Of a stretch of 64,000 nt of DNA, positions 41,176-55,122 are shown one piece after another. Position 1 is the stretch's first letter, and each line of letters begins with the position of its first letter. Source of the DNA: Stappia indica (GTDB lineage Bacteria; Pseudomonadota; Alphaproteobacteria; Rhizobiales; Stappiaceae); contig NZ_JAIVMG010000001.1 in the NCBI RefSeq assembly GCF_020177335.1, forward strand, positions 248,001 to 312,000, written 5' to 3'. A program made the position numbers and the translations under genes. The notes under the pieces are model-generated. The model was given only the letters and a program-made list of their open reading frames with translations. It was not told the DNA's origin and did not search any database.

Positions 41176-41206
41176 TTGACCTTCCTGCGGCTGGAAGCCC
41201 TACATT
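41176..41206 (+). promoter_or_regulatory. CueR-type copper promoter of copA
   Basis: TTGACC (41176-41181) and TACATT (41201-41206) are 19 bases apart, the long spacer typical of MerR-family promoters. The spacer holds the copper dyad CCTTCC and GGAAG. This fits CueR, which untwists such promoters when Cu(I) is bound. The copA ATG lies 30 bases downstream. Confidence 0.85.
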
Positions 41207-41235
41207 GCTCGCATCGTGAAAAACGGAGCCTGGCG

Positions 41236-43581
41236 ATGGCGCATGAAGGTCAGGGCAACGGGGATGGGGTGCGCGATCCGGTCTGCGGCATGGTGGTCAT
41301 GCCAGGGCCGGAGACACCGAGTCTCGATCACGGCGGCGAGCGCCACTACTTCTGCAGTGCGTCCTGCCGCGACAGGTTCGCGGCGGCTCCGGATGACTAC
41401 ACGCGTGGAGACGGGCAGGAGGCGCCGGCGCCGGCGGGGACCAAATACACCTGCCCGATGCATCCGCAGATCATACGCGATGCGCCCGGCGCTTGCCCCA
41501 TTTGCGGCATGGCGCTGGAGCCGATGGGCGTTCCCGCAGCGGAGGAAGGGCCAAGCCCGGAGCTGATCGATTTCACCCGGCGGTTCTGGATCAGCGCGGC
41601 CTGTGCCTTGCCCCTCCTGGTGCTCGCGATGGCACCGATGTTCGGCCTGCCGCTCAGGGCGTGGATCGGCGAGGGCGTCAGCCTATGGGTGGAGTTCGCG
41701 CTGGCAACCCCGGTGGTTCTCTGGGCGGCCGCGCCGTTTTTCGTCCGGGCGGTGCAGTCGGTGGTCAATCGCAGCCCGAACATGTGGACGCTAATTGGCC
41801 TCGGGGTCGGGGCTGCCTATGGCTACAGTGTGGTGGCGATGCTGTTTCCCTTCGCCTTTCCGCCGTCCTTCCGGCTCGAAGGGGGGCATGTGCCGGTCTA
41901 TTTCGAGGCGGCGGCGGTGATTGTCGCGCTGGTGTTCCTCGGCCAGGTGATGGAGCTGCGCGCTCGCGAGCGCACCGGCTCGGCGATCCGCGCGCTGCTT
42001 GATCTGGCGCCGAAGACCGCGCGCCGCCTCCGGCCGGACGATCTGGAGGAGGAGATCCCCCTTGAGCTGGTGGTGGTCGGCGACCGGTTGCGCGTTCGAC
42101 CGGGGGAGGCAATCCCGGTCGATGGCGTGGTGCAGGAAGGGCGCTCGTCGGTCGACGAATCCATGCTGACTGGCGAACCTGTTCCGGTGGAAAAGATCGA
42201 GGGCGACGGGCTGACCGGCGGCACCTTGAACAAGAACGGAACCCTTGTGATGCGGGCCGAGCGGGTCGGGGTGGAGACCATGCTGTCGCAGATCGTAGAC
42301 ATGGTGGCAAAGGCCCAGCGCTCGCGCGCGCCCATTCAGGGGGTGGTCGACCGGGTCTCCGCGTGGTTCGTGCCCGCCGTGGTGCTCGTTGCGGCGATTG
42401 CCTTTGCCGTTTGGGCGCTGGTTGGTCCGGATCCGGCGATGATCTTCGCCATCGTGTCGGCGGTGTCGGTCCTGATCATCGCCTGTCCTTGCGCGCTGGG
42501 GCTGGCAACACCCATGTCGATCATGACGGCGACGGGACGTGGGGCGCAGGCTGGCGTCCTGATCAAGGATGCGGAAGCGCTTGAGCGCTTCTCCCAGGTG
42601 GACACGCTGATTGTCGACAAGACCGGAACCCTGACGGAAGGCAAGCCTCGACTGACCGATGTCGTTGCCATCGCCGGTGACAGGGACGCGGACGGGGACG
42701 GGCGCGGCGCCGAGAATGACCTTCTTGCGCTCGCTGCCAGCCTCGAACGAGGCTCGGAACATCCCCTGGCCGATGCCATTGTCGAAGGCGCGCGCGCACG
42801 GGACCTGCAGCTTCAGGCTGTTACTGAGTTCGACGCGGTCACCGGCAAGGGCGTGACCGGTGTGGTGGAGGGCCGGATGGCCGCGCTCGGAAATCAGGCA
42901 TTGATGACGCAGCTCGGCCTGTCCACCGCAAGCCTGGAGACGCTTGCCGATAGCTTGCGCGACGATGGCAAGACGGCGATGTTCGTGGCCGCCGAGGGGC
43001 AATTGCTTGGCCTCGTGGCGGTTGCCGATCCGATCAAGGAAACGACGGTAGAGGCGATCCGGCAGCTGCATGCGCTTGGCCTTGCCATCATCATGGCGAC
43101 CGGCGACAACGAGCGCACGGCCCGCGCGGTTGCAAACAGCCTTAAGATCGACGATGTGCGTGCCGGCGTTCTGCCAGAGGGCAAACAGGCACTGGTGGAG
43201 GAACTGCGGGCAGCCGGGCGCTCCGTTGCCATGGCCGGGGACGGGGTGAATGACGCCCCGGCATTGGCCAGTGCCGATGTCGGGATCGCGATGGGTACGG
43301 GCGCAGATGTCGCGGTGGAAAGCGCCGGACTGACCCTCGTCAAGGGTGACCTCAATGGCATTGTCCGCGCGCGCAAGCTGGCCCGCGCGACGCTCCGCAA
43401 CATCAGGCAAAACCTCTTTTTCGCCTTTGTCTACAACGCACTGGGCGTTCCGGTTGCTGCCGGTGTTCTCTATCCGGTGTTTGGCACCCTGTTGTCGCCG
43501 ATGATCGCCGCCGCGGCCATGAGCCTTTCCTCGGTCTCGGTGATCGCCAATGCGTTGCGGCTGCGCAATATCCGGTTGTGA
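41236..43581 (+). CDS. copA: Copper-exporting P-type ATPase (P1B) with YHS and heavy-metal-binding domains
   Basis: This 781-residue pump exports Cu(I) from the cytoplasm using ATP. In order it has a YHS domain (13-55, DPVCGMVV and [11 protein letters not shown]), a heavy-metal-binding domain (70-98, YTCPMHPQI and [10 protein letters not shown]), eight membrane helices, CPC (417-419) in helix 6, the phosphorylated Asp461 in DKTGT, and GDGVNDAP. Helix 7 (YNALGVP) and helix 8 ([10 protein letters not shown] type) fit Cu(I) specificity. There is no CxxC-type HMA domain. The ATG at 41236 follows the CueR-type promoter and a GGAG site. Confidence 0.95.
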
Positions 43582-47273: not shown

Positions 47274-50273
47274 GTGAACAAACAGGAAATAGAAGAAGGC
47301 GTCTCGCTGCGGCAGGCGCAGCTACTTGGGGCAAGCGTGGCGCATTTCCGTGCGCTGGTGGCGCGACATCCGGAGAATGTCAGCGCCCGATTGCACCTTT
47401 CCAGCTCACTGCGTCTCATCGGGGCCTATGAGGAAAGCCTGGCGCTGCTCGATGCCGTGCTCGAGGGAGACCCTGCCAACCGGGCGGCGCTGGTCGGTAA
47501 GGTCGACACTCTGGCGCACCGGCAGCAGTTTGCCGAGGCGCTGACTGTGCTGGACACAGCACAGGTCCTTTATCCGGATGAGCTTGACCTGCGTCTCAAG
47601 CAGGGCGTTGTACTGCGGCTGGCGCAGCGGCTGGAAGACAGCGTGGCGTATTTCCGGGATCTCGTCGCGCAGCATCCCGAGCATGTCGATGCTCGGTTGC
47701 AGCTCGCATTATCTCTGCGTCTCGTCGGCGCTTATGATGAAAGCTTGGCGTTGGTCGATGCGGTCCTTGCGGCGGACCCGCGCAATCGAGCGGCGCTGGT
47801 TGCCAGGATCGACACGCTGGCACACCGACAGCAGGTCACCGAGGCGCTGGAGAACCTGCACGAAGCACAGGTTCGTCATCCGGGCGGTCTCGATCTGGAG
47901 GTCAGGCAGGGCGTGCTGTTTCGACAGGCTCAGCAGCTCGATGCAAGTGTGGCGCATTTGCGGAGGCTGGCGGCGCAACATCCCGAGCATGTCGACGCTC
48001 GGTTGCAGCTCGCAACATCCTTGCGTTTTGTCGGTGCGCATGAGGAAAGCCTGGCGCTGTTCGACGCCGTACTTGAGATGGAGCCCCGACACCGGGGGGC
48101 GCTGATCGGCAAGGTCGATACGCTTGCGCACCGGCAGCAGTTTGCCGAGGCGCTGGACGCATTGGGCGCGGTACAGGCGCTTTTCCCCGATCATCTCGAC
48201 CTGAAGGTCAAGCAAGGCAACTTGCTGCGTCAAGCGCAGCGGTTGGATGAAAGCGTGGCGCATTTGCGAGCGTTTGTTGCGCTGCATCCAAAGCATGTCG
48301 ACGCCTCCTTGCAGCTTGCGATCTCCCTGTCTCTCGCAGGGGCGCATGATGAAAGCCTGGCGATGTTGAATGCCATGCTCGCGGCGATGCCCGGACATCG
48401 AACGGCCTTGGTACACTTGGCAAACCTTCACCTGTCCGACAACGAGCCGGAAAAGGCGCTGGCAACGAACACCCTGGCAGCAGGGCGTTTCCCCGGGGAT
48501 ATCCAACTGGCGCAACAGAGGGTGGGGATACTCGCCCGGATGAGCGACCAGGAAGATGTGGTCGAGCAATTGCAGATATTGTTTCGTCAGGCGCCCCAAT
48601 CCGCCGTTGTTGCTCGAGGGCTGATTGATAGGTTGGTTCGGGACTGGCGCTACGACGACGCCATGGAGGTTTTCAGGCGCTTTGTCGACACACCGGTTCT
48701 CGACAACAACGGCCGTCAGCAACAGATCCTTCTGTGCCTGCAGTATGGAGAACTGTCCAGAGCGCTCGACCTTTCCAGAAGGTGGATGGACGCTTATCCG
48801 GACAGCTTTGATGCCAAACTTTCTTTTTTTACGGTTTGCTGCGAACTCCCCAAGGCTCCGGTCGATCTTTCGACGCTGGAGGGGGAGTTGCTCCGCCGAT
48901 GCAAGGGATCAAGCGCGCTGGCAATCGCCCGTGCCCTGAGGCGGCAATACGAACTCGATTTCGGAGGCGTGACGGCGGTGCTTGTGGGGTTCTTGCGGGA
49001 GAACCGGAGCGCCGTCGACGTGTTGAGCTATCTTTTTCAGTTTCTTCTCGGGATCGACAAGCTTGATAGCTGCCTTGATCTGCTGCGCGGCTTCCCCGAA
49101 CTACGGGCGCCCCATGTTTTTGACCTGGCGAACAAGCTTCTCATGGAAGGCCGGCGCGTTGAGGCCGATGCCCTATTGCCAAGGCTCGAAGACGCCGTCG
49201 AAGCGGCGTCTGCAGCTCACGAAAGGGTTCAGCTTCTGCGGCGGATGTGCGCCCTGCAGATCCTGCGCAATGATGGTCCCGCGCTCAACAAAGCCGTGGA
49301 GACGGCGTTGTCCCTCAAGAACCTGGGGGGAGCGAACAGGCATTACTTCACCTGCATCAAGCATGGGCTTCTCGGTCGCAACGATGGCGACGGCGTACCC
49401 GAGACGGTGTCCTTGGTCCCAAGCGGGCTCTCGTTGAAAGCGCTCGTGCAGGGGAAGGGCTATCGGGCGATGTCGATCAAGCCGGAGGCCCTCGCCATTG
49501 CACGACAAATCTCGGCTCCATCCGACGGCTTGTATGAAGACTGGCTGAAGCGGGCGTTGAAGGGAGCTACCGTCCGGCATACGGTTGCCCACTGCTACGC
49601 GGAACGTCCGGAAAAACTCGATGACCTTGAGGGGCTGGTTGATTTTCCTGACAGTGCGGTTCTGGAGCGATATGCAGGCCGATCCGAGCCATTTCTGGTG
49701 ACGGGCACGCATCAGGGCGCGAATGCCGTCGTATGGCGCCTTCTGCAATCGTTTCCGAACCTGCGCGTGGTCGCAGTCCACAAGCAGTTGCGGCGCGATC
49801 ATCCCACCGCAAGAGCCGCCTTGCCGTTGGGCCCCGATCCGGCGTCGACGCGCGCGTTGATCAACGCTCTGCGCGCGGGAGCTCCGGTTGCCGCCGCCCT
49901 GGACCAAGTTTTTCTAAGCGGTTGGAGCACGGGTGAGAACGCGCACCTGGTCAATACCGTCGAGCTTCAGCTTTTTGATTTCCCGCCGCTGCGGGTCCCC
50001 AACTTGCTTCCCAAGCTTGCCTGGAAAATGAATCTGCCAAGCTATTGGGTGCAATCCTATCTCGACAGGGGGCGGGTCCGGATCGAACTGGTCCGGCTGC
50101 CGGACGCTGACTATGCGATCGATCGGGAAGCCTGGATCGGCCAGTGGGTCGCAGCGTATGGAAAGCAGGTGGAAGCGGTGTTGCGATCCACTCCGGAAAA
50201 TCTCTGCATTGAGGCAGGGCTTATCAGGGAAATCGCTCGAACCTGCGGAACCAGGCGTCTGGCAGCGAGATGA
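47274..50273 (+). CDS. TPR-repeat protein with C-terminal LpxL-like acyltransferase fold
   Basis: This protein has 999 residues. Residues 12-385 form four copies of a 102-residue unit, each built of TPR helices, and further helical repeats run to about 700. The C-terminal part (about 770-985) resembles LpxL/HtrB acyltransferases: FLVTGTHQGANAVVWRLLQ, VAAALDQVFLSGWS, then FPPLRVPNLLPKLAWKMNLP. The usual HX4D/E catalytic pair is not intact (His is followed by QGANA), so activity may be altered. The start is a GTG with a weak ribosome-binding site. Together with the next three genes it looks like part of a biosynthetic cluster. The domain call is made by eye. Confidence 0.72.
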   Translation: MNKQEIEEGVSLRQAQLLGASVAHFRALVARHPENVSARLHLSSSLRLIGAYEESLALLDAVLEGDPANRAALVGKVDTLAHRQQFAEALTVLDTAQVLYPDELDLRLKQGVVLRLAQRLEDSVAYFRDLVAQHPEHVDARLQLALSLRLVGAYDESLALVDAVLAADPRNRAALVARIDTLAHRQQVTEALENLHEAQVRHPGGLDLEVRQGVLFRQAQQLDASVAHLRRLAAQHPEHVDARLQLATSLRFVGAHEESLALFDAVLEMEPRHRGALIGKVDTLAHRQQFAEALDALGAVQALFPDHLDLKVKQGNLLRQAQRLDESVAHLRAFVALHPKHVDASLQLAISLSLAGAHDESLAMLNAMLAAMPGHRTALVHLANLHLSDNEPEKALATNTLAAGRFPGDIQLAQQRVGILARMSDQEDVVEQLQILFRQAPQSAVVARGLIDRLVRDWRYDDAMEVFRRFVDTPVLDNNGRQQQILLCLQYGELSRALDLSRRWMDAYPDSFDAKLSFFTVCCELPKAPVDLSTLEGELLRRCKGSSALAIARALRRQYELDFGGVTAVLVGFLRENRSAVDVLSYLFQFLLGIDKLDSCLDLLRGFPELRAPHVFDLANKLLMEGRRVEADALLPRLEDAVEAASAAHERVQLLRRMCALQILRNDGPALNKAVETALSLKNLGGANRHYFTCIKHGLLGRNDGDGVPETVSLVPSGLSLKALVQGKGYRAMSIKPEALAIARQISAPSDGLYEDWLKRALKGATVRHTVAHCYAERPEKLDDLEGLVDFPDSAVLERYAGRSEPFLVTGTHQGANAVVWRLLQSFPNLRVVAVHKQLRRDHPTARAALPLGPDPASTRALINALRAGAPVAAALDQVFLSGWSTGENAHLVNTVELQLFDFPPLRVPNLLPKLAWKMNLPSYWVQSYLDRGRVRIELVRLPDADYAIDREAWIGQWVAAYGKQVEAVLRSTPENLCIEAGLIREIARTCGTRRLAAR
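47307..48428 (+). repeat. Tandem 306-base coding repeat (TPR units)
   Basis: The period is exactly 306 bases (102 codons). Copies begin at 47307, 47613, 47919 and 48225; the last is partial. Corresponding protein landmarks are HPENVSARL, HPEHVDARL (twice) and HPKHVDASL. Copies 2 and 3 are especially alike in DNA around 47673 and 47979, which suggests recent duplication or gene conversion. Confidence 0.85.
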
Positions 50274-50381
50274 TTGTCATTGCCAAGATGAGCGAAATTT
50301 CCGGGGCGGGGGGCGGCGCGCTTCCTCCTCAGCGTTTTAATGGTATCAGAGAGGCGCGGGACTGAGAGTGCCGAAACGTCA

Positions 50382-50417
50382 TGCACAATCTACGGATGAT
50401 TTATTGTGCAATTGCAC
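50382..50417. promoter_or_regulatory. Candidate operator upstream of the radical SAM gene
   Basis: A perfect 12-base palindrome GTGCAATTGCAC lies at 50406-50417. TGCACAAT (50382-50389) and ATTGTGCA (50403-50410) form a second inverted pair around it. A further hairpin-like ATGTGCC-GA-GGCACAT is at 50458-50473. The clustered half-sites suggest a cluster-specific regulator, which is not encoded in the window as far as I can see. Confidence 0.5.
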
Positions 50418-50508
50418 CCTTCAATGTGTGCTGCGAAACTGATCTGTGAAAACGCTGATGTGCCGAGGCACATGGGCCGACGACACACCACCCTTGGGGC
50501 GTCCATAA

Positions 50509-51696
50509 GTGACCCACGAACAGCCAGACGACACACGCCGCGAGCGTGATGCTCTCGGGACGCCGCGCAGGGCTGCGGACCGCACCCGCCGCGCCGCGAG
50601 CGTGGATACGACGGCGGCTCAGGCGCGATATATCCAGGGACGAATCCGGGAGATTCTCCACGATTTTCCGGGGTTGGAGCAGCGCTATGGGGGAGCCCGG
50701 CGCATTATCCGCGCATTCCGCCGTCCGAGTTTTTACGAGGTCAGCCAGAGATGCAATCTCTGGTGCGAGGGTTGCTATTATTTTGAGGATGCCGCTCGCA
50801 AATCCGCCAGCGCGGAGATGACCGAGACGGCGTGGAGCGCGTTCTTCGCAGGCGAACGCGAACGCGGCGTGTCGATGGCCTATCTGGTCGGAGCGGAGCC
50901 GGCGCTTTATCCGGAGCGGCTGAAAGCCGCCTCACGCAACATCCGCTACGGAAAGATCGGCACGAACGGAACGATCCGTATCCCGGATGAGGTCCGGTTT
51001 CGCATTGGCGTTTCCGTCTGGGGTAACGAAACCGACGATGCGGTGCTGCGCGGTGGATCGGTGTTGCGCAAGGCAATGCGGAACTATGCAGGCGATCCGC
51101 GTGCCATCATGCTGTTCACCCTGTCTCCGTGGAATCTGCAAGACATGGACGAAGTCGTTCAGGCGAGCGAGGACCATGACCTGAAGCTCACCTTCTCGAT
51201 GTTCTCGCCGACGAAAACCTATCTGGAGAAGCTTGACCAGGGCGCTCCGGCGGATTCGAGTTATTTCCGTCTCGGGCCGACCCGGGCGCGGCCGGTATTT
51301 TCCGATGACGACCTGAAGAAGACCTCGGAGTCGATCCGCCGGGCGATGCAGCGCTTTCCCGACACCGTGCTGTTCTCGGAAGAGTATTGCGACCTGATCA
51401 CCAAGCCGGGCCCGCTCTATGAGATGAATCCGGAGAGCGGTCTTGCCGAAAACTGCGGCTCGCGCATTCGCGAGCCTTTGCGGTATTTCGATGCCTCCGG
51501 CACGGCCAAGCAGGTGAAATGCTGCACCCCAGATGTGGACTGTACCCATTGCCGCCTTTACAGCGGCGGCTGGTCGACGCTCTTTCGGCCGACGGAAAAA
51601 CATCTGGCCGGCGCGTCCTCCTTTGAGGGGTGGTTGCGCATGATCGAGACCGTTGGCCGGATCTTCCTCTTTCCCTACCCATTTGAGGCCGGTTGA
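50509..51696 (+). CDS. Radical SAM enzyme
   Basis: This 395-residue protein holds the [4Fe-4S] motif CNLWCEGC (Cys82, 86, 89) that splits S-adenosylmethionine into a radical. VGAEPAL fits the SAM-binding GxEP motif. A C-terminal group of cysteines (Cys316, Cys338-339, Cys345, Cys348 in KCCTPDVDCTHC) may bind an extra iron-sulfur cluster, as in SPASM-type enzymes. The start is a GTG after GGGG. Its stop overlaps the start of the P450 gene (TGATG), so both act together. The substrate is unknown. Confidence 0.85.
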   Translation: MTHEQPDDTRRERDALGTPRRAADRTRRAASVDTTAAQARYIQGRIREILHDFPGLEQRYGGARRIIRAFRRPSFYEVSQRCNLWCEGCYYFEDAARKSASAEMTETAWSAFFAGERERGVSMAYLVGAEPALYPERLKAASRNIRYGKIGTNGTIRIPDEVRFRIGVSVWGNETDDAVLRGGSVLRKAMRNYAGDPRAIMLFTLSPWNLQDMDEVVQASEDHDLKLTFSMFSPTKTYLEKLDQGAPADSSYFRLGPTRARPVFSDDDLKKTSESIRRAMQRFPDTVLFSEEYCDLITKPGPLYEMNPESGLAENCGSRIREPLRYFDASGTAKQVKCCTPDVDCTHCRLYSGGWSTLFRPTEKHLAGASSFEGWLRMIETVGRIFLFPYPFEAG

Positions 51697-53000
51697 TGAT
51701 CCATGTGCCGAAGCTCGCGCTGAACGGAACCAGGGCCAGCCTTGGTTCGCCGATCAGGGCATGTCGGTCCCCAGAGACGAACTGGCCCGCGGAAATCCTG
51801 GATGAGCCGATTTGCGTCGGCGAGAAGGCGGGCAGGACCGTGGTGTTGTTGGCGGCGCCAGAGGAAATCAAGCGGGTGATCGTCGAAAGGGAAGCGGAGT
51901 TTCCCAAGTGGCTGCCGATCTACCGCCATTCCGCCGCCCGGGAAACGGGTACGGGAACGATCTTCGCCGCCAATGATGAGGACTGGCTGCCGATCCGCCG
52001 GGCGATCAATCCCCTGTTCCATAGCAGCCGTTGGGCGCTGCTGGTCGAGGTCGCACGGCATGTGACTTCGCAGGCCAGCGCCAGCCTCCCGGTCGACGAT
52101 ATCGAGCGTTTCTTCACGGCGATTTCGGTCGATGTGGTCTACCGGACCCTTGTCGGCGATGGCGCGGAGGGGACAGCTGCGTACGATCTGCCGGGGATGG
52201 CGGAGGGGTTGGTGCGGATGCAGCACGCCGGCGACCTGCGCGGAGCGATGCGGCACATCCATGATCTGGCGGTCGCCTGTGAAGCCCGCGGCCCGGGACC
52301 GGAGGCTATCGCTGGGGTGGATCTGGCCGGTAAGGCTCCGGCGCGACCGCGGCCGCTGGAGGAGCCTTACCTGCACGACAACCGGCTTGCGCTGCTTTAT
52401 GCCGGACAGGAAACCACGGCGCTGACCATGAGTTGGTGTTTCTGGATCCTGGGGCAGGATCCTGAGTTGCAATCCCGTCTTCGGCATGAAGTCCGCGAGG
52501 CGGTGACCGAGGCGGGAGGCCTTTCGACGGATGCCATCACGAAAATGAAGATGTTGTTTGCGGTGTTCCGAGAGACGATGCGGCTGTTGTCGCCGTCTGC
52601 GGCCACCGTTCGTACGGCAGCGCAGGAGACGGAACTATGCGGCCAGCAGGTGCCGCGAGACAGCGTGATTGTCATTCCGATCTACGCGGTCCATCGCCAC
52701 AGGAGCTTGTGGGACGATCCGGACAACTTCGACGCCGAGCGATTCCTCCGGCCCTTGAAGCATCCCATGGCCTTCCTGCCCTTTGCTGCGGGGCGGCATA
52801 CCTGCGTCGCGGCGCGCAGTGTCATGTACGAGATGGCGACGGTGCTGGCGGTGTTGCTCGACCGGTTCGCCTGGACAACCTCGGAGGCCGACCGTATGGG
52901 ACTGACCAGCAAGCTGGTGCTCTCGCCCACGGCGGACATGAAGGTCGAGTTGAGCGCGTTGACACCCCGCTTCAGCCAGGTGGCGGGCGCTACAGGATAA
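51696..53000 (+). CDS. Cytochrome P450
   Basis: This 434-residue monooxygenase is complete: the I-helix motif AGQETT (236-241), ExxR in RETMR (Glu293 and Arg296), and the heme loop FAAGRHTC with the ligand Cys370. It has no membrane anchor, as is usual for bacterial P450s, so it needs a ferredoxin partner from elsewhere. It is translationally coupled to the radical SAM gene. Its stop overlaps the convergent carbamoyltransferase gene by 11 bases. Confidence 0.93.
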   Translation: MIHVPKLALNGTRASLGSPIRACRSPETNWPAEILDEPICVGEKAGRTVVLLAAPEEIKRVIVEREAEFPKWLPIYRHSAARETGTGTIFAANDEDWLPIRRAINPLFHSSRWALLVEVARHVTSQASASLPVDDIERFFTAISVDVVYRTLVGDGAEGTAAYDLPGMAEGLVRMQHAGDLRGAMRHIHDLAVACEARGPGPEAIAGVDLAGKAPARPRPLEEPYLHDNRLALLYAGQETTALTMSWCFWILGQDPELQSRLRHEVREAVTEAGGLSTDAITKMKMLFAVFRETMRLLSPSAATVRTAAQETELCGQQVPRDSVIVIPIYAVHRHRSLWDDPDNFDAERFLRPLKHPMAFLPFAAGRHTCVAARSVMYEMATVLAVLLDRFAWTTSEADRMGLTSKLVLSPTADMKVELSALTPRFSQVAGATG

Positions 53001-54873
53001 GCTCCCACGGCAGAACCTGTTTCTTCGCCATGTGCCGCGCATGGCGGCGCAGACGTTCCGCGTCAGCCTTGTCGCGGATGTCGAGCGTCTGGAAGGCCGG
53101 GAGAAATCGGTGCATGGCCAGCGCCATTCGGTCGAGGTCATGCGGGTTCTCTTCCCGGTCCAGGCACTCGTCTCGCGAGGCATCGTGGCGGAACAGCGCC
53201 GCATGCCGTCGTTCGGGGAGGGGGCTTGCATCCTCCGTCGCATCCGCTGGCACCTCATGGCGCCAGCCATCGACATAGACCACGCCCACGCCGCGACGCC
53301 GGGCAAAGGCAAGAGCCTCGTCCAGCGTGTTGATGATGGGCTCGCCCTTGTCGTTGAGTGACGTGTTGCAGAGCATCGGCACGCCGGTCCGCCGATAAAA
53401 CGCGGTGAGCACGCCGCAGAGCTGCGGCGCCTCGTCGCGCGATAGTGTCTGGATGCGCGCGGACCGGTCGAGATGCGCAACTGCGGGGACCTGCGCGGCT
53501 CGTTCGGGGCGAAGGGTGAAAGTCCGCAGCATGTAGGGTGAGTGATCGGCCTTCTCGAACCATGCATCGACATGCTCGTCGAGAATGACGGGTGCGACCG
53601 GTCGCCACCACTGTCGCCGCTTGATCTCGTTCAGCCGGTCCTTTGCTGCCGGATTTCGCGGATCTGCCAGAAGGCTCCTGTGGCCAAGGGCGCGAGGTCC
53701 CATCTCGGCGCCGCCCTCGATCCAGACAATGGGGCCGACCATCAAGTCATCCAGGACCGAATCGAGGTCGGCCGGCTCGGTCCGGGGGAGAGCGGCGGCA
53801 CGTGCGCCCATGCCTGCCGGTCCGCCCTTGAAGTGGAACTGCTGCATCGTCTTGAGAAAATAGAGCAATCCGTAGCCCAGCGAGATCCCGCTGTCGTTGA
53901 CCGCTGGAGGCGCCTGGAAGTGGGCAAAACCGAAGTGCTGCATGACATGGGAATTGGCGCGGCAATTGAGGGCAAATCCGCCGCTCATGGCAAGGGTGGT
54001 GGCGGCGGGATCCAGCCCTTCGGCGCGGATGATCGCCTGCAGCGTGTCGCAGACTTGCCGGATGGACAATGCCTGGACGGTCTTGGCCAGAATGGAAATC
54101 CGATTTTCCGCTTCGCTGAAGCGCGGATCGAAGCCTGTATGGCAGGTCCCGCGATCCTCTGCGGTCAGGGCGAAAACCTCGTCGTGGAGCTGGCGCACCC
54201 AGTCGAACGCGGTCTTGAAGTCTCTCATCGTCAGGACGGAAGGCGGCGGCGAGGGAGGGGCGACAAGATCCACGGTCGTGGCACTGCCCAGCGCCATCAA
54301 CGACCCTTCTTCCAAACCGGTCAGCGCTCGCATCGCCGACCAGAACGGGCCGGGCGAGGAGATCGGAAACAGCCTTGTCTTGCCTTGGCGGACCACCGCG
54401 CCGGCATAGATCGGGTCTTCCAGCCCGGGCCTGGTCAGGACCGCATCCGGGCCGCCGTCCATCGCCAGGCCGATCATGTCGCCGCCGAAATAGCGGTCTG
54501 TGTCAAATAGCAGCGCTCCGAAGAGATGCGCCGCCGTATGGGGATTGAAGCCATCCTGGCACAACAGGCGGTCGTCTTGCGTGGACAGGCCAGGGGTGCC
54601 GATGATGGCCGAGAGCTGATCCCGCTGAATGCCGGCCTCAAGCAGCAGGACGTCAATGAGGGCAAGCGCCTGCGCCCGGTCGGCGAAAGAGGCGGAATGG
54701 TGCTTGCGCCCCGAGTAGCGTTCGAACTCCCAGTATCTGAGGAGCTCGACATGTGCCCCCTGTTTTCGCCAGAGGGCCATGTTCTGATCGTGGCGGACAG
54801 GAATGCTGCGGGTCAGGCAGAGCCGGTCGATATGCGCATAAACGGAAAGGTAGAGGCCGTCTTCGCAATCCAT
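52990..54873 (-). CDS. NodU/CmcH/TobZ-type carbamoyltransferase
   Basis: This protein of 627 residues transfers a carbamoyl group from carbamoyl phosphate, through carbamoyl-AMP, to a hydroxyl group. The N-terminal Kae1-like part has FNPHTAAHLFGALLFD and IGLAMDGGPDAVL. The middle has LAMSGGFALNCRANSHV, and the C-terminal domain has EMGPRALGHRSLLADPRN with RRQWWRPVAP. The ATG at 54873 has AGGAG and AAGG upstream. The gene converges on the P450 gene. Enzymes of this type decorate antibiotics and Nod factors. Confidence 0.9.
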   Translation of the reverse strand: MDCEDGLYLSVYAHIDRLCLTRSIPVRHDQNMALWRKQGAHVELLRYWEFERYSGRKHHSASFADRAQALALIDVLLLEAGIQRDQLSAIIGTPGLSTQDDRLLCQDGFNPHTAAHLFGALLFDTDRYFGGDMIGLAMDGGPDAVLTRPGLEDPIYAGAVVRQGKTRLFPISSPGPFWSAMRALTGLEEGSLMALGSATTVDLVAPPSPPPSVLTMRDFKTAFDWVRQLHDEVFALTAEDRGTCHTGFDPRFSEAENRISILAKTVQALSIRQVCDTLQAIIRAEGLDPAATTLAMSGGFALNCRANSHVMQHFGFAHFQAPPAVNDSGISLGYGLLYFLKTMQQFHFKGGPAGMGARAAALPRTEPADLDSVLDDLMVGPIVWIEGGAEMGPRALGHRSLLADPRNPAAKDRLNEIKRRQWWRPVAPVILDEHVDAWFEKADHSPYMLRTFTLRPERAAQVPAVAHLDRSARIQTLSRDEAPQLCGVLTAFYRRTGVPMLCNTSLNDKGEPIINTLDEALAFARRRGVGVVYVDGWRHEVPADATEDASPLPERRHAALFRHDASRDECLDREENPHDLDRMALAMHRFLPAFQTLDIRDKADAERLRRHARHMAKKQVLPWELIL

Positions 54874-55032: not shown

Positions 55033-55122
55033 TGGCGGAAGAGGTGGGATTCGAACCCACGAGACGGTTACCCGCCTGCCGGTTTTCAAGACCGGTGCCT
55101 TCAACCACTCGGCCACTCTTCC
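55033..55122 (-). tRNA. tRNA-Ser (TGA)
   Basis: The 90-base gene has the long variable arm of class II tRNAs. The acceptor stem GGAAGAG/CTCTTCC, the anticodon loop CTTGAAA with anticodon TGA, the T arm GGTTCGAATCC and the encoded CCA are all present. Confidence 0.97.

Follow-up and report, generated by a model that had tools for sequence, protein, structure and literature searches.

Four adjacent genes at the Stappia indica locus

We examined four adjacent genes in a 64-kb stretch of Stappia indica DNA (the window, in which all positions are counted). An earlier note, made from the sequence alone, had proposed that they form a biosynthetic cluster encoding a TPR protein with an LpxL-like C-terminus, a radical S-adenosylmethionine (SAM) enzyme with extra cysteines, a coupled cytochrome P450 and a convergent NodU/CmcH-type carbamoyltransferase. 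Open reading frames (ORFs) and family searches place the four genes at 47274-54873 as claimed, and each of the descriptions agrees with the evidence below. The first gene (AT; 47274..50273, plus strand, 999 aa, GTG start) encodes an N-terminal TPR region followed by a C-terminal LPLAT acyltransferase of the LpxL/PatA/VexE type. It is followed by the radical SAM enzyme (RS; 50509..51696, plus strand, 395 aa) and the P450 (51693..53000, plus strand, 435 aa as listed), which likely starts at the ATG at 51696. This ATG overlaps the RS stop codon by 1 nt (TGATG). The NodU/TobZ-type O-carbamoyltransferase (CT; 52990..54873, minus strand, 627 aa) is convergent with the P450 and overlaps it by 11 bp.

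Downstream of CT lies tRNA-Ser(TGA) (55033..55122, minus strand), at the border of a backbone common to the genus, and beyond it a gene that we take, from its sequence, to be RlpA-like. Among named genomes, Stappia taiwanensis is the closest match, with the four genes in identical order (identities of 93% for RS, 94% for P450, 85% for CT and 67% for AT). ARAGORN also called a tRNA-Glu on the minus strand at 50876-50955; it lies inside RS on the other strand and was taken as a false call.

RS carries invariant C-terminal cysteines

Using a three-row RS alignment, we scanned a genome collection described as covering 84,980 species and obtained 111 related stretches, of which 80 were kept. Neighbour counts were made on the 29 that form a closer group (best-segment identity 37-93%), which come from Alphaproteobacteria, Oceanospirillaceae, another gammaproteobacterium and Magnetococcales; the other 51, here called distant, were treated separately. 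The RS alignment (A3) holds the window, 28 of the 29 close loci (L027 was left out) and 4 of the 51 distant ones. The CX3CX2C motif of RS (C82, C86 and C89; 50752..50775, plus strand) is invariant in all 33 aligned rows. Four further cysteines near the C-terminus (C316, C338, C345 and C348; 51454..51552, plus strand) are kept in 29/29 close rows, while the distant rows have C338, C345 and C348 in 4/4 and C316 in 0/4. We infer that the C-terminal cysteines likely form an auxiliary iron-sulphur cluster site. In a check for a SPASM or twitch domain, these four cysteines were invariant in the 29 close rows and no NCBIfam SPASM model passed its cut-off.

RS matches no Pfam family at E 0.01, PF04055 included, and none of RS, P450, CT and AT reaches the cut-off of an NCBIfam model. 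We call RS a radical SAM enzyme because of its CX3CX2C motif, weak NCBIfam matches, a profile match to SkfB and its predicted fold. In a structure profile search RS matches SkfB at 4e-10, the sole convincing sequence match among SkfB, SuiB, BlsE, viperin and DesII. The predicted model (mean predicted local distance difference test score, pLDDT, 84.8) is a partial TIM barrel that loosely resembles SkfB, SuiB, BlsE, viperin, MoaA and DesII; among the matches listed, the query-normalised template modelling (TM) score is at most 0.47, and SkfB and SuiB rank above DesII, BlsE and the viperins. A radical SAM barrel with a C-terminal extension is what RS shares with BlsE, viperin and DesII and with SkfB and SuiB, which are maturases of ribosomally synthesized and post-translationally modified peptides (RiPPs). 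Judged from its sequence, RS represents a radical SAM family to which the libraries searched assign no function.

AT resembles VexE in architecture and active site

The N-terminus of AT matches TPR families in Pfam, and its C-terminus was assigned by profile and by model. A profile built from 18 AT C-terminal regions matches LpxM (2e-5, and 6e-6 for the E127A mutant; 5kn7/5knk) and PatA (3e-4) in the PDB, and the predicted structure of AT (pLDDT 79.5) resembles LpxM (E 4e-8, 7e-8) and PatA. We aligned the AT of the window with those of 17 of the 18 loci that carry one, leaving out L081 with its broken reading frame. A putative catalytic histidine is invariant in these proteins (18/18), an acidic residue at H+5 is found in 0/18, and an acidic residue 63 to 73 positions after the histidine is found in 18/18 (16 Asp, 2 Glu). 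In AT itself the pair would be His813 and Asp877, 64 residues apart (49710..49904, plus strand). A canonical LpxL/LpxM assignment is rejected, and the acyltransferase is better described as VexE-like, because the acid of the HX4D/E motif is missing in all 18.

VexE likewise combines TPR and LPLAT regions, and in the available text of PMC9597891 it is an ACP-dependent UDP-GlcNAc C-6 hydroxyacyltransferase (ACP, acyl carrier protein) in which a Tyr replaces the HX4 acid and H466 and D532 are required. AT shares with it the TPR region, the C-terminal LPLAT domain and the absence of the HX4 acid, and the His-to-Asp spacing of 64 residues compares with 66 in VexE as that text gives it. The NCBIfam VexE model (NF011721) aligns to residues 914-989 of AT (9e-9) and to residues 287-637 of the homologue in L009 (1e-17). 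However, AT scores 34 of 1200 bits, far under the cut-off of this model, and its partner genes are RS, P450 and CT. By sequence, AT thus resembles VexE in architecture and active site; it might at most work in a VexE-like way, and we do not call it a VexE. No tandem DNA repeat that would be a sign of recent TPR duplication was found in AT.

P450 and CT retain the motifs of their families

The P450 belongs to PF00067 (6e-50), and its heme-ligand (heme-thiolate) Cys and ExxR motif are retained in 24/24 aligned homologues. The acid-alcohol pair of the I-helix is variable, reading AGQETT in the window and AGHDN in six loci of the MBOAT type described below. The best NCBIfam match of the P450 is the RiPP P450 ApyO, far under cut-off.

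CT resembles the TobZ/NodU/GdmN O-carbamoyltransferases in its C-terminal domain and part of its N-terminal domain. It matches PF16861 (Carbam_trans_C) at 3e-54 and TobZ structures at ~3e-33, and Carbam_trans_N is barely over its cut-off (25.0 vs 24 bits, over a short stretch). CT differs from the NodU equivalog, scoring 152 of 1000 bits against NF041651, under cut-off. The GPRALG and NTSLN segments are present in 9/9 CT homologues and the DG(G/A)PD segment in 7/9, not being found in L029 and L031. Elsewhere in the Stappia indica genome, four more carbamoyltransferase matches lie within ~33 kb of one another (contig C5, 224477-257768).

RS is linked to a P450 and an acyltransferase-type partner across distant taxa

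A profile search of all ORFs found a P450 near RS in 23 of the 29 close loci (all except L019, L022, L026, L030, L032 and L033). In the window's genus and order, 17 of 21 genomes have P450 matches, with at most six in each, and 4 have none. Because P450 genes are so few per genome, their presence near RS in 23/29 loci is not due to chance.

An acyltransferase-type partner stands near RS in 28/29 loci; the exception, L027, is on a contig that starts 400 bases before RS. This partner is a TPR-LPLAT protein of the AT type in 18 loci (broken or cut in L081), an MBOAT together with an SGNH-like protein in eight (L020, L021, L023, L024, L025, L028, L029 and L031), and a TPR protein with another, unclassified C-terminus in two (L030 and L033). 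The last two had been counted as AT by a whole-protein profile; an LPLAT-only profile does not match them, and they were counted apart. CT is found in 8/29 loci and a methyltransferase (family F6) in 4/29. In none of the 29 loci do LPLAT and MBOAT occur together, nor do CT and F6.

The order of the genes also differs between taxa: AT-RS-P450-CT, with CT convergent, in Stappia; CT-AT-RS-P450 in Pseudovibrio; RS-P450-CT-AT in Leisingera, Amphritea and Oceanobacter; and P450-MBOAT-SGNH-RS in Brevundimonas. Because these orders differ, the linkage is not merely the descent of one unchanged segment. In sum, the families named in the earlier note recur together in other genomes, and the scattering that would have spoken against a cluster is not seen. 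Its four-gene set stands in so far as RS, P450 and an acyltransferase-type partner are commonly linked, whereas CT is optional.

We also found RS overlapping a TPR protein in L106, a locus outside the 29 that came from 385 alphaproteobacterial genomes. TPR or TPR-like proteins that overlap RS lie at 11070-12956 in L030, 11124-12515 in L033 and 9033-10532 in L106. By eye, a nucleophile-elbow-like motif makes their C-termini look alpha/beta hydrolase-like; Pfam detects TPR in L030 and L106 and no hydrolase, and the LPLAT-only profile has no match in the L106 protein. The C-termini of L106 and L030 match each other (26% over 164 residues, 2e-5). Separately, L013 and L081 are two diverged RS-P450 clusters in one Magnetococcales assembly (JADFWU01), each with an upstream methyltransferase, and the acyltransferase frame of L081 is broken.

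RS is rare and its tree departs from taxonomy

RS was found in 3/61 genomes, and in 3/385 alphaproteobacterial genomes at E 1e-40, the window's own genome being in both counts. An RS tree of 34 rows (the window, all 29 close loci and 4 of the 51 distant loci) departs from taxonomy: Stappia and Pseudovibrio, both Stappiaceae, fall in separate clades, and Oceanospirillaceae occupy two separate positions amid other taxa, one of the joins having modest support (93/84). RS and P450 distances covary (r=0.85, n=24; 0/5000 permutations as high), as would be expected for genes that move together.

In seven of 13 other genomes of the genus we examined regions of ~10 kb, and in 7/7 of them tRNA-Ser(TGA) lies upstream of the RlpA-like gene. 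On the far side of the tRNA in these seven regions there is no BLAST match to AT, RS, P450 or CT and the gene content differs; in one of them (L091) the window's metal-ATPase-like ORF at 41176-43581 is weakly matched (34%). These variable flanks suggest that the cluster may sit in an island at tRNA-Ser. A second copy of the 3' end of the tRNA was not found in the window at up to 3 mismatches, nor was one of note found by blastn-short, and phage records hold no RS match.

Distant homologues and a sister cluster share parts with the RS loci

The 51 distant loci (L034-L080, L082-L085) are mostly from Desulfobacterota. Their RS is ~30% identical to that of the window, a second RS-like ORF is present in 44/51, and no P450, AT or CT match was found by BLAST at 1e-5. 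Their surroundings include ACP-like, ketosynthase-like, FabG-like, thioesterase-like and exporter-like genes (names given from reading the sequence, apart from the carriers used in the carrier profile search), and the one B12 radical SAM protein tested passes TIGR04072 for ladderane-type lipid biosynthesis (377 vs 360 bits). This suggests that the distant loci are clusters of the kind discussed in the available part of PMC2649909, a 2009 paper whose text there leaves the reactions of the radical SAM enzymes of ladderane-type lipid clusters unassigned. RS resembles the radical SAM enzymes of such type II fatty acid synthase (FASII) clusters for ladderanes and polyunsaturated hydrocarbons in its ~30% identity, its CX3CX2C motif and a C-terminal CX6CX2C. 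In contrast to RS, these homologues have C316 replaced in the 4 aligned and form a separate, fully supported branch of the tree. The loci differ as well: carriers and FASII-like genes are present in the Desulfobacterota loci, whereas no carrier was found in the 29 close loci or the window.

On plasmids, RS homologues of 22-33% identity are found in Methylomagnum (ACP, TauD, RS and nonribosomal peptide synthetase, NRPS), in Burkholderia stagnalis (phenylacetic acid catabolic protein, RS, PaaI thioesterase and cupin) and in Alteromonas (phenylacetic acid catabolic protein, RS and MaoC). As judged from these neighbours, the wider RS family is found near oxygenases and thioester or lipid enzymes.

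AT has relatives of its own. Its profile matches 7/41 genomes, namely the window's, S. taiwanensis, four further members of the genus and one from a different genus of the same family; in 5/41 genomes the AT homologue lies outside an RS cluster, and four of these five, all from the window's genus, have a carbamoyltransferase match no more than 3 kb away from it. We examined three of the five resulting regions (L097, L098 and L099, all of the Stappia family) as a sister cluster. All three have CT and AT matches by BLAST and none has an RS match by BLAST. Pfam finds a PP-binding carrier, an AMP-binding enzyme (AMP ligase) and a B12 radical SAM protein in both L097 and L098, and BLAST extends this set to L099. 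Of L097 and L098, only L098 has a P450 Pfam match, to a 728-aa protein that shows two heme-type segments by eye and has homologues in L097 and L099 by BLAST. Four Brevundimonas loci have a B12 radical SAM protein next to RS, and that of the sister cluster shares 45-48% identity with it. The RS-type and sister clusters thus have parts in common, and the sister type hints that these enzymes could act on a carrier-bound substrate. The earlier note had seen no core gene of the NRPS, polyketide synthase (PKS) or terpene kind; this holds for the RS loci, and perhaps not for the wider family, since the sister cluster has a carrier. The sister cluster was matched to no known pathway in this analysis.

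A candidate pathway and its alternatives

We propose that the four genes form one dedicated pathway whose product, made from a small precursor, is oxidised, carbamoylated and acylated, a reading to which we assign a probability of about 0.5. It draws on the conserved linkage, the intact motifs and the way one acyltransferase type takes the place of another beside RS. RS would act first, by radical chemistry, and its substrate would be either a small polar molecule or an acyl or aminoacyl group bound as a thioester. The P450 coupled to RS would add or change a hydroxyl, and CT would cap a hydroxyl by forming a carbamate; four other loci have a methyltransferase in place of CT. AT would move a fatty acyl group, probably from acyl-ACP as in VexE, onto a hydroxyl or amine to give a lipid-like product. 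Because an MBOAT/SGNH-like pair replaces AT in eight relatives, acyl transfer fits a step that always has to be filled. The frequency of RS partners runs from acyl transfer, nearly always present, through an oxygenase to carbamoyl and methyl transfer, which are optional.

Several observations weigh against this proposal. P450 is absent near RS in six of the 29 loci and CT in 21, some contigs being short; given these gaps, either the product varies or not all four enzymes act together. L106 has no P450, LPLAT or CT profile match in 11 kb. The SGNH-like partner (SGNH/AlgX) falls below the Pfam cut-off, which MBOAT exceeds in the one member scanned. The 29 loci are not fully independent, including two near-identical Nioella, two Pseudovibrio exalbescens, two Magnetococcales loci from one assembly and S. 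taiwanensis from the window's own genus, and shared descent may lie partly behind the correlation of RS and P450 distances. Run against 3983 ORFs from the window and the 29 loci, a carrier profile gave no E better than 0.23, and five control carriers scored 1e-23 to 1e-34; since this profile found no carrier, any carrier-bound substrate, like the acyl donor, has to be supplied from outside these loci. As for the substrate, sugars, amino acids and fatty acyl groups are all candidates.

These substrates lead to different readings. In one, the enzymes work on a sugar or nucleotide sugar destined for a surface glycolipid or capsule, with AT acylating the sugar as VexE does, CT and methyltransferases decorating sugar hydroxyls, and RS acting on a nucleotide in the manner of DesII or viperin. 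The reaction and the TPR and LPLAT architecture described for VexE in the available text of PMC9597891 would suit this, as would the DesII, BlsE and viperin folds among the RS matches and a Capsule_synth gene that adjoins the Marinobacterium cluster (L008). However, that capsule gene occurs in one locus only, the RS fold matches are loose (TM at most 0.47 among those listed) with SkfB and SuiB ranked higher, and no glycosyltransferase or sugar-nucleotide enzyme is seen among the annotated recurrent neighbour families, many neighbours being without annotation; we regard a sugar pathway as unlikely. A substrate bound to a free-standing carrier acting in trans, whether an amino acid or an acyl group, and released by AT or its substitutes is also improbable in our view. 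The AMP ligase and carrier of the sister cluster and its B12 radical SAM relative beside RS in Brevundimonas favour this reading, together with the ACP/TauD/NRPS, PaaI thioesterase and MaoC neighbours of the plasmid homologues and the FASII-like setting of the Desulfobacterota loci, where the tested B12 radical SAM protein passes TIGR04072. Against it, the carrier profile, with working controls, detects no carrier in the window or in any of the 29 RS loci, and RS is not matched by BLAST in the three sister regions.

That RS and P450 would tailor a ribosomal peptide, from lasso-type or unrecognised precursors, seems quite improbable. SkfB and SuiB are the nearest RS structures, ApyO is the best sub-threshold NCBIfam match of the P450, and P450-MBOAT-SGNH-RS directly follows lasso-type genes in two Brevundimonas loci (L021 and L023), yet such gene families occur in only these 2/29 loci. 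In L012, L014, L017 and L018, moreover, the genes abut or overlap and leave no space for a precursor between them, short ORFs outside the operons not having been searched systematically. The lasso-peptide-type genes themselves lie at 50-6083 in L021 and 195-5728 in L023, with a PqqD-like chaperone in both and a cyclase and B2 protein tested in L021. Hardly any weight falls on the view that the four genes are mere neighbours in a variable tRNA-Ser-linked region and share no pathway: the rarity of RS and the differing gene content on the cluster-facing side of tRNA-Ser in the other genus genomes examined would agree with it, but the same families recur together in different orders and in distant taxa.

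A more far-reaching form of the dedicated pathway can be offered tentatively, as a rather doubtful idea. Here RS would found a new class of natural-product pathway in which RS and an oxygenase yield a building block that is reactive or rearranged, to be turned into a lipid by an exchangeable acyl-transfer module (TPR-LPLAT, MBOAT/SGNH or TPR-hydrolase), with no NRPS, PKS, terpene or ribosomal core. If this were true, RS would share chemistry with the radical SAM enzymes of ladderane-type lipid clusters, to which it is related.

Known enzyme classes in an undescribed combination

Searches of the open-licence literature returned no description of this four-enzyme combination, no known pathway was matched and, as stated above, no NCBIfam cut-off was reached, which bears out the earlier note's view that no described pathway has it. 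The cluster is a set of known enzyme classes in a combination found undescribed in the open-licence literature, with a functionally unassigned radical SAM family at its centre. Clusters of this type, which have no recognised core gene, may escape rule-based genome mining, and the recurring unit of RS, oxygenase and acyltransferase offers a handle for mining such products. Because acyltransferase types are exchanged beside one radical SAM enzyme, the role of acyl transfer lends itself to direct testing.

One further feature of the neighbourhoods recurs. Three tandem proteins of the phage tail collar family (PF07484) are present in L012, L017, L027 and L029, lying 8 kb from RS in L029. In L012, L017 and L027 they are followed by members of the GNAT and DUF6916 families, as assigned by Pfam on L017.

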